Source of the DNA: Steromphala cineraria
Lineage: Eukaryota; Mollusca; Gastropoda; Trochida; Trochidae
DNA: 64,000 nt
Direction of reading: 5' to 3'
NCBI GenBank assembly: GCA_916613615.1
Contig: OU744730.1
Coordinates: 37,557,315 to 37,621,314, forward strand
Numbering within the stretch: the stretch's first letter is position 1; each line of letters starts with the position of its first letter. A model generated the notes under the pieces. It did no database searches and was not told the DNA's origin. It worked only from the letters and a program-made list of their open reading frames with translations. Positions 13,024 to 64,000 of this stretch are shown one piece after another. The translations under genes were made by a program, and so were the position numbers.

Positions 13024-16000
13024 GTAGACCTCTTTCTACTTTCTTTCCAAAACTCTTTGATATAGTCGCAAAAACAAAAAAAGTTATGTACAAGTGTTAC
13101 ACAATCTTTTAATTCACAAATATGTTACAAAACATTGCATCATCTTTCTGCTAAATCGATCGACATGTGAAGCAAAGAGAAGCTTTGAAAATGATGCTTG
13201 TGGTGAAACTTAATTGAAGTTGTGTTGATTTCATGAGGATTTTTTAAATCAAATTGCAAATAAACAAAGACATTTAATTACATGTCTTTTACTGAATTTC
13301 CAACTCTGATATCATTGTATTTGTTAATGGTTTTGAGACTGAAAAATTAAAACGAGATTGAACTTGGTGCAGCTGTTTATGATTGTGATGTGAGCGAGAT
13401 ATTAACCGTGTGTGTGCTGCAGGCAGAGAGAGCCATCATAGCTGACCAGCTGGACCATGAGTATCTGCCCATCACAGGACTCGCAGACTTCTGTAAGGCC
13501 TCAGCAGGACTGGCTTTTGGGGATGACAACTCCGTCATTGCAGACAAGCTGGTATGTGCTTAGTATGTCTCCCGTTCCTTGTTGAGTCTGTGACCTGTAG
13601 ATTGCCATTGATAACATGATGAAAGTATTTGTAAGACTTCCAGGATTTATCCATTATCAACAGCTGCAAAGTAAGTTTCAAAGCAGATGCTGTTTGTCCA
13701 AGATGAGGTACTTGAATTTGAAGGGGTTCAACACCTTGAATCCCAGGAATGTAGAATACTTATTATAAGTGAAAGTAGTGACAGACTTAATTGATGGGTT
13801 ATAGTTTATATACTCAATGAGTAAAGGGCTATTGATATTTATCAATGTAAATATAATTTCCAAAATATATTTTGATGTACAATTAAGATTTCCATCAGCA
13901 CATTATTGTACTATGGTCAAGTGAATCAATGCAGAAAATTTTTTGATATTGTCATTGAATGTCTTCTGCAGAACGTCACCTCCCAGGGTATATCAGGCAC
14001 CGGCTCACTGCGCATTGGGGCTACATTCTTCGTGAGTTTCCTTCAAGGATCATTCATATACTGTACAGGCTTCCCACATATATACCCTCTTTGAATCATG
14101 GATTTTTTTAGTAAAATCTATCTAATACTGTTTAAATTAATACTAGCTCAATTTGTAGATATATCTGAAAAGCTACATACAGTAAACAACAATATCAGTG
14201 TTACATAGTAAAGTTATTCATATGCTTACCATGGTGCTTTGAGATAGTCAGATGAGTGAGTGTATGCTCTGTTGTACAGGCCAAGTGGTACTCCCCCAGC
14301 AAGGTGTTCTACATCCCCTCTCCCTCCTGGGGTAACCACACACCCATCTTCAAGTGAGTACACATCTCCACACACCCATCTTCAAGTGAGTACACATCTC
14401 CATACACCCATCTTCAAGTGAGTACACATCTCCACACACCCTCCTTCAAGTGAGTACACATCTCCACACACCCATCTTCAAGTGAGTACACATCTCCACA
14501 TACCCACCTTCAAGTGAGTACACTTCTCCACACACCCATCTTCAAGTGAGTACACATCTTCATACACCCATCTTCAAGTGAGTACACATCTCAACACACC
14601 CACCCATCTTCAAGTGAGTACACATCTCCACACACCCATCTTCAAGTGAGTACACATCTCCACACACCCATCTTCAAGTGAGTACACATCTCCACACACC
14701 CATCTTCAAGTGAGTTCACATCTCCACACACCCATTTTCAAGTGAGTACACATCTCCACACACCCACCTTCAAGTGAGTACACATCTCCACACACCCATC
14801 TTCAAGTGAGTACACATCTCCATACACCCACCTTCAAGTGAGTACACATCTCCACACACCCATCTTCAAGTGAGTACACATCTCCACACACCCATCTTCA
14901 AGCGAGTACACATCTCCACACACCTATCTTCAAGTGAGTACACATGTCCACACACCTATCTTCAAGTGAGTTCACATCTCCACACACCTATCTTCAAGTG
15001 ACCTATATTGATCTCAATCTGTCGCAAGTTTCTGAGATGGGCTCATCTTACCAATCACAAGTCATGCAGCAAAAGCTTTCAATATGATGCTAGGGGCAGA
15101 TAATTTTAGTGTACCATTCGTTATATACATAATTGCAGCTAAATGCTATTTAAAAACGAGGATGTGATTTGATAGCATACAACTGGGTTTGTCTGCGCTA
15201 AACTGGTTATAGCAACATGTGACAGAGGTGGCCGCATTCAGAATGAGACGGAGAGGATATCCAGACTGGTTCGAACCCCGATAGAGACAATATTTTTGCA
15301 ATTTTATTCCTCGGAGTACGGTTGATTTTAAACAGACTGCCCCTACCTCTAATGCAGAATTTACCATATATCCTAGCACAGTGTCCTCAACCATGACACA
15401 AAATAAAGCTTTCTTGATCGGCTTTCATTCAGTTTCAAACAGTTAAATGATGTTGTAGTGAACAGCCACTTTTACAGTGACGTCCCTTGATGTTAGGTCG
15501 GTCCTTGTCGGTCATATAGGGATGATAGGTCAACCCATGTATTTACTTAAAAACTTGTAACTCTGACAACATTGAAAATCTGTCTTCTATTGATATTATG
15601 CTCAATGAAAGAAAGCTGAGTTGTTTCTAAATAAATTTTTGTGTATGTTATGTCCAGTTTGATTGTAGACTGTTCTTTATAAAGTTGGACTGTGCCATAG
15701 TTTTGCAAGTAAATGGAACCGGTCTGATATTTTAATAATTAGTCATGTTAGAATGGATATAAATCCATTTTATCAAGATGGGTTTGAAATTAGATCTAGG
15801 GGTAAAGAATGCACTAGATACAACCCAAAAATGATAAACAGAATGGATTTATCTCCTAAATGAATGGTACATTGGAGTGGCCTAACCCTAGTTTTACCCC
15901 ATTTGCGGGAGACCTTGCGATCAGCTGGATGAGCTTGCATCAGAAACATGCAACAAAGGTGGCTGTGACTGGGACGGACAGGATATCCGGGCTGGATTGA

Positions 16001-63285: not shown

Positions 63286-64000
63286 ATATCTCATTGTGTC
63301 TGCAGGTAGACAGCTACCGTGCTATGAAGTCTGCATGTCTCATTGCGTCTGCAGGTAGACAGCTACCGTGCTATGAAGTCTGCATGTCTCATTGGTAGCT
63401 ATGAAGTCTGCATGTCTCATTGTGTCTGCAGGTAGACAGCTACCGTGCTATGAAGTCTGCATGTCTCATTGCGTCTGCAGGTAGACAGCTACCGTGCTAT
63501 GAAGTCTGCATGTCTCATTGGTAGCTATGAAGTCTGCATGTCTCATTGTGTCTGCAGGTAGACAGCTACCGTGCTATGAAGTCTGCATGTCTCATTGTGT
63601 CTGCAGGTAGACAGCTACCGTGCTATGAAGTCTGCATGTCTCATTGGTAGCTATGAAGTCTGCATGTCTCATCGTGTCTGCAGGTAGACAGCTACCGTGC
63701 TATGAAGTCTGCATGTCTCATTGCGTCTGCAGATAGACAGCTACCGTGCTATGAAGTCTGCATGTCTCATTGCGTCTGCAGATAGACAGCTACCGTGCTA
63801 TGAAGTCTGCATGTCTCATTGTGTCTGCAGGTAGACAGCTACCGTGCTATGAAGTCTGCATGTCTCATTGCGTCTGCAGGTAGACAGCTACCGTGCTATG
63901 AAGTCTGCATGTCTCATCGTGTCTGCAGGTAGACAGCTACCGTGCTATGAAGTCTGCATGTCTCATTGTGTCTGCAGATAGACAGCTACCGTGCTATGAA
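63284..64000 (+). repeat. 49-bp splice-acceptor minisatellite, right part
   Basis: Tandem 49-bp units, TCTGCAG|GTAGACAGCTACC, GTGCTATGAAGTCTGCATG, TCTCATTGNG, run to the window end. About fifteen are present, some being short variants with TCTCATTGGTAGCTATGAAG. Each unit carries a full acceptor-like CATTGTGTCTGCAG plus about 30 bases that read VDSYRAMKS in frame with the exon at 57,244. The unit thus looks copied from an intron/exon junction of the FAXDC2-like gene. The true exon is probably beyond 64,000. Confidence 0.9.

Follow-up and report, generated by a model that had tools for sequence, protein, structure and literature searches.

Why should several tandem arrays in one stretch of a gastropod genome sit on exon-intron boundaries, and which site would be used where a boundary is present in many copies? 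We addressed these questions in a window of 64,000 nt, the whole stretch of DNA analysed here, across which tandem repeats were called with TRF. Four minisatellites had been predicted, and TRF bore out both their positions and their unit sizes of 32, 43, 35 and 49 bp (arrays 1 to 4; Table 1). The original prediction further held that all four are built on splice junctions. This stood for two donors in the gene GOT2, which are certain, and probably also for an acceptor in a FAXDC2-like gene, whereas the proposed 5′ donor of a kinase gene is unproven. Arrays 1 and 2 contain a splice junction within the repeat unit. The consensus units of the four arrays differ from one another, and within the arrays TRF gave unit matches of 93, 96 and 94% for arrays 1 to 3 and of 80-98% in the overlapping rows of array 4.

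Table 1. Genes, arrays and inserted element in the window; slashes mark exon boundaries, proven or putative.
Feature	Position	Strand	Remarks
GOT2 (mitochondrial aspartate aminotransferase)	9247..24493	+	11 exons, 428 codons, 10 GT-AG introns
GOT2 exon 5	14280..14353	+	final 18 nt belong to array 1
Array 1	14336..15001	+	32-bp unit of 18 nt of exon 5 plus GTGAGTACACATCT donor; TRF 20.7 copies
GOT2 exon 10	23859..24009	+	ends CAG/GTGGGT
Array 2	24007..24308	+	39-bp first unit, 43-bp units thereafter; TRF 43 bp x 7.1
Alpha-kinase coding exon	45178..45970	-	acceptor just upstream of ATG (45960)
Array 3	49228..51423	-	35-bp unit, TRF x 62.7; putative junction 51420/51419
FAXDC2-like exon	57244..57365	+	...KVQPGKNQP/, donor CCG/GTACTC
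Array 4, left piece	59755..59827	+	read by eye; ends approximate
Non-LTR retrotransposon within array 4	59828..63287	-	ORF 59939-63118; ends approximate
Array 4, right piece	63289..64000	+	49-bp unit ...TGTGTCTGCAG/GTAGACAGCTACCGTGC (TRF: 49 bp and multiples); reaches window end

The exons of GOT2 were located by tblastn with the Haliotis protein, after which the GT-AG boundaries were set. The joined exons read through without an internal stop, and the intron phases are 2,0,0,0,2,0,0,1,2,0. Exon 1 joins in frame, but its match is weak (46% over 28 residues, E 1.9). Among the best 120 of 7987 matches, the nearest GOT2 is that of the abalone Haliotis cracherodii, with 79% identity over the full length, and the next-ranked are from other molluscs (69-71%). 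Because the joined reading frame is complete and aligns to PDB 3hlm and to Haliotis GOT2, the donors of intron 5 (exon end at 14353) and intron 10 (exon end at 24009) are certain.

Array 1 opens with the last 18 nt of exon 5, and each of its units comprises these exonic bases plus 14 intronic nucleotides. Its copies read CCACACACCCATCTTCAA/GTGAGTACACATCT or close variants, with the donor GTGAGT in 19 of the 21 copies, GCGAGT in one and GTGACC in one at the far end. Exon 5 ends in N-H-T-P-I-F-K, for which PDB 3hlm has NHTPIFR and Haliotis NHTPIFK, and the exonic 18 nt of the unit encode most of this conserved stretch. The copies stem from the junction itself, with the exon end copied into the intron; since they carry conserved coding bases together with the donor, the exon is their source and the direction of copying is clear. 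Edge units of array 1 showed no clear effect on divergence. Three of the downstream donors in this array were checked, and each gives a stop directly past PIFK.

Array 2 starts at the closing CAG of exon 10 (24007-24009), so that three exonic nucleotides and the donor are present in each unit. Seven donor sites read CAG/GTGGGT and are followed by an eighth, CAG/GTAAAG. The array makes up 83% of the 361-nt intron 10. With only three exonic bases common to the unit, it abuts the junction and is less clearly exon-derived than array 1. Use of its seven downstream donors would have unequal results: the second site is in frame and adds 13 residues (the 39-nt first copy), while the six later ones truncate the protein.

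In addition, we compared each of the 20 GOT2 junctions with the adjoining 400 nt, a span longer than the shortest introns, using 40 shuffles per junction. Self-similarity was found at two junctions, with scores of 38 and 19, whereas the remaining 18 scored 6-9. Weak older duplications at these 18 junctions were considered and rejected, as none scored above its own shuffle maximum (8-11).

The case for array 4 depends on its reading frame. Its units read CAG/GTAGACAGCTACCGT, that is, an acceptor TGCAG followed by GTA GAC AGC TAC CGT, which would encode V-D-S-Y-R. After the NQP that closes the upstream FAXDC2-like exon, P0130, the sole homologue found, continues with V-D-H-G-K. Human FAXDC2 reads VDPVK at this position. 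Further FAXDC2 stretches in the window were not found by tblastn with P0130 at E up to 1. Splice sites were scored with matrices of human values; with these, the array 4 consensus acceptor scored 8.77, which ranks at the 99th percentile among the AGs of the window and is reached by 2.1% of random units. Because acceptor, phase and first residues agree, array 4 probably supplies the acceptor for the FAXDC2 exon that follows. This junction falls short of certain because the exon before it has a weak donor, which scores 1.69 and ranks at the 74th percentile among GTs.

Array 4 is split by a non-LTR retrotransposon, and it therefore predates the insertion. The element has an open frame of 1060 codons with endonuclease and reverse transcriptase domains and is probably young. 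The FAXDC2 intron also holds an element of about 310 bp at 57537-57849 that looks like a MITE. Its terminal inverted repeats, identified by eye, are 24 nt long and consist of ACCGTATTTCCTCTAATAAGCGCC and the complement of this sequence; GGCGCTTATTAGAG repeats lie between them.

For array 3 the evidence is less direct. Read in the sense of the alpha-kinase gene, 61 of its 63 units retain GT where the donor would lie, and 59 of the units show CAG/GTAAAC or CAG/GTAATC; the array edge on the kinase side is CAACAG/GTAAAC. A search with the kinase at 45178-45970 gave nine proteins, of which the named sources are all gastropods, with the top identity in Haliotis (68% over 64% of the query). Together with the GOT2 matches, this points to a gastropod source, probably a vetigastropod of a genus other than Haliotis. 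If the putative donor is joined to the coding exon, the frame ...AQVN/STVR-MKILC is open, and the Haliotis protein P0124 reads LNSTT-MKILC, a resemblance that hints at a kinase junction in common. When the nine relatives were aligned, four started exactly at the exon-2 ATG, which lies 10 nt into exon 2, two started slightly inside and three had 7-13 extra residues. Because six of nine thus start at or just inside MK, array 3 as the kinase 5′ donor stays unproven. Three alpha-kinase genes, diverged from one another, lie within 13 kb of the window, at 32854-33594 (+), 41298-42108 (+) and 45178-45970 (-), and each has a TTGCAG acceptor ahead of its likely start codon. These acceptors suggest an upstream leader exon and a structure common to the three kinases; nothing places such an exon at 51420.

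The unit types of array 3 recur in blocks. Mean differences from the rest of the array were 2.8-4.0 for the five units next to the putative exon, 10.0 for the distal partial unit and 1.4-3.4 for the others. Block recurrence and divergent edge units fit ordinary minisatellite turnover. Beside the array, a reverse-transcriptase open frame of 400 codons lies within the putative kinase intron at 47484-48683 (+); the frame at 46673-47122 upstream of it may be part of it.

We consider it probable that these arrays are minisatellites of the type called mirages, that is, chance tandem duplications that included an exon-intron junction, expanded in the ordinary way and were tolerated through splicing at the native site. 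A tandem duplication would by chance take in the junction, and the duplicated unit would then expand as an ordinary minisatellite, presumably by slippage or unequal exchange. The spliceosome would keep joining the native site at the exon edge, which is the first of the donors or the last of the acceptors, and probably this site only. The other copies would be discarded as intron, so that growth of the array would cost little in protein. Array 3 may belong to the same class as arrays 1 and 2. For GOT2, a normal protein needs use of the native site, because nine of the ten downstream donors checked would truncate it.

The original prediction took it that nothing would normally anchor minisatellites at splice sites. 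This overlooks a precedent in amphioxus, where two papers describe mirages as minisatellite-like tandem duplications of 5′ or 3′ exon-intron boundaries in Adh3, in the globins BflGb6 and BflGb9, in TnC and in PGBD5 (PMC3087553; PMC3902484). According to these papers, the units measure 10-72 bp in Adh3, or about 150 bp, and many contain AG/GT; those of BflGb6 are 81-100% alike, with edge units excluded from homogenisation and haplotypes of six and three units, and RT-PCR suggests undisturbed splicing (PMC3087553; PMC3902484). The repeat units of arrays 1 and 2, and probably of array 4, likewise span an exon-intron boundary, and the more divergent edge units of array 3 resemble BflGb6, with the array 3 junction itself unproven. 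The systems differ in that mirages are known from cephalochordates, whereas ours is a gastropod known from the DNA of one haplotype, and in that the proven junctions carry 21 and 8 donor sites compared with the six and three units of BflGb6.

Two further systems resemble the arrays in part. A minisatellite in human IFI6 (6-16) supplies multiple splice donors (PMC4526556). There as here the repeat units carry donors, which in GOT2 are putative; in IFI6, in contrast, splicing at downstream units yields isoforms, whereas most of the GOT2 copies would lead to the truncations described above. A potato RdRp gene gained an intron through duplication across an exon-intron boundary (PMC4974935). Such a tandem duplication also copies splice signals across the boundary, but unlike in potato no new intron was seen here. 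A recent origin of GOT2 intron 10 by AGGT duplication was rejected, as the intron opens with GTGGGTGAC, which differs from GTTCAACGA in the exon after it. Human segmental duplications contain variable tandem repeats located at exon-intron boundaries, and these may form novel introns (PMC2812944). Intronic minisatellites of earthworm metallothionein were set aside as a precedent, since in the available account the arrays lie within intron 1 and are not placed on a junction. Among the openly licensed papers listed there was no molluscan or gastropod junction minisatellite; a Conus gene-structure paper (PMC3862624) and an abalone genome paper (PMC5439488) deal, in their available text, with microsatellites or methods only. 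The arrays thus add a further phylum to a known phenomenon, for which amphioxus has so far been the main example. They extend the mirages of lancelets to a mollusc, in which 50 kb hold two proven cases and perhaps as many as four.

The contact between arrays and junctions could also be a coincidence, sharpened by the selection of examples: minisatellites, being common, would at times fall next to exons at random, and the AG-GT motifs of their units would be over-read. We therefore placed the 11 arrays of the window with at least three copies and a unit of at least 10 bp at random 20,000 times, against 25 junctions established without recourse to the arrays; a low-complexity TTGTTT array (55891-55944), arrays of two copies and those with shorter units were left out. 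Two of the 11 arrays touch such a junction, and the nine that touch none speak for coincidence. When overlap with exons was limited to at most 30 nt, 136 of 20,000 placements contacted at least two junctions (0.7%), and 182 brought at least two edges to within 20 bp of a junction. This limit is reasonable because selection acts against arrays inside coding exons. Without it, half of the placements (50%) contacted at least two junctions, because large arrays swallow exons, and at least two edges lay within 20 bp of a junction in 4.3%, a rate that is favourable to coincidence. When the two GOT2 arrays were placed inside GOT2, contact was found in 3.6% and 5.2% of placements with the 30-nt limit and in 39% and 27% without it, and unlimited placements had edges within 20 bp in 9.7% and 9.9%. 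The excess over chance hinges on the null, and because the finding was picked post hoc these figures are indicative only.

Coincidence would also fit the array 3 unit, in which the plus strand holds a better donor than the kinase sense (8.73 versus 7.50), and the donor-like sites in further arrays, the best of which scored 11.2 (321-1020, minus), 9.5 (38745-38900, minus) and 9.3 (42828-43512, plus). However, both GOT2 junctions are certain, and the 18 nt of conserved coding sequence in the units of array 1 argue that there, at least, more than mere adjacency is involved. As an account of the arrays, we therefore regard coincidence as unlikely.

Very unlikely, in our view, is that the copies were selected as redundant sites, acting as back-ups or as zero-length-exon ratchet points of recursive splicing, with splicing insensitive to copy number. 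Most units of arrays 2, 3 and 4 juxtapose a 3′ and a 5′ splice site as AG/GT, which is absent from array 1. In this pairing of an AG that resembles an acceptor with a GT that resembles a donor, these units are like recursive splice sites, and they could serve as ratchet points. Their acceptors scored 6.0, 7.2 and 8.8, within or above the range of real GOT2 acceptors (2.8-8.0), and their donors 10.0, 7.5 and 5.1, within that of GOT2 donors (3.5-10.0), with the human matrices weakening the comparison. Array 1 differs from such sites: its units read CAA ahead of GT, without AG, so that they cannot work as ratchets. The donor columns of array 1 are unusually conserved, with changes at 1/180 positions compared with 19/460 elsewhere in the unit (Fisher p 0.02, for units that are not independent). 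In array 3, by contrast, variability is no lower in the donor columns than in the rest of the unit (0.049 versus 0.037). Among the 14 CAG sites printed for array 4, by a pattern that needed CAG and so counted only units that have it, 11 are followed by GT and three by AT instead. The suggestion that selection favours redundant sites thus finds a sign in array 1 and none in array 3.

Base composition bears on how the duplications started. Sense-strand GC skew was -0.59, +0.27, -0.50 and +0.06 for arrays 1 to 4 (array 3 on the strand of the kinase), and the G+T content of the units was 0.31, 0.58, 0.29 and 0.57, compared with 0.51 for the window. Because of this skew, G-rich transcripts prone to R-loops are absent in two arrays and marginal in one. 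Two general causes had been proposed, and neither agrees with these values: for R-loop seeding the skew differs in sign among the arrays, and for slippage at G/T-rich donors, G and T are scarce in arrays 1 and 3. Seeding directed to junctions by R-loops, by such slippage or by repair of intron-targeted breaks would account for the number of arrays on junctions in 50 kb, two of them certain, but with strongly negative sense skew and G/T-poor units in arrays 1 and 3 it is the least probable of the explanations.

Chance duplication followed by ordinary expansion, the reading we prefer, leaves one point aside, since neutral growth alone gives no reason for more seeding at junctions than elsewhere. 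A wider claim, which we find unlikely, is that in the gastropod lineage minisatellites arise preferentially at junctions throughout the genome, as in amphioxus. Introns would then grow by copying their own edges, and many genes would carry tens of competing, near-identical sites that are correctly resolved. The arrays put two questions to vetigastropod genomes, namely whether tandem duplication is biased towards junctions and how the spliceosome chooses one donor among 21 nearly identical ones. Arrays on junctions offer a concrete route to intron growth and, potentially, to intron gain.

Two other regions of the window are rich in repeats. An array of an 11-bp TGATACAGAGA-like unit lies at 25428-25798, about 0.9 kb past the GOT2 stop codon, where no gene junction is known. 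RNA families gave 0 matches at the gathering threshold across the window. Positions 1-4000 are GC-rich (0.59 and 0.50, compared with 0.31-0.48 in the rest of the window), with an excess of A over T and tandem repeats of 139 bp and 126 bp.
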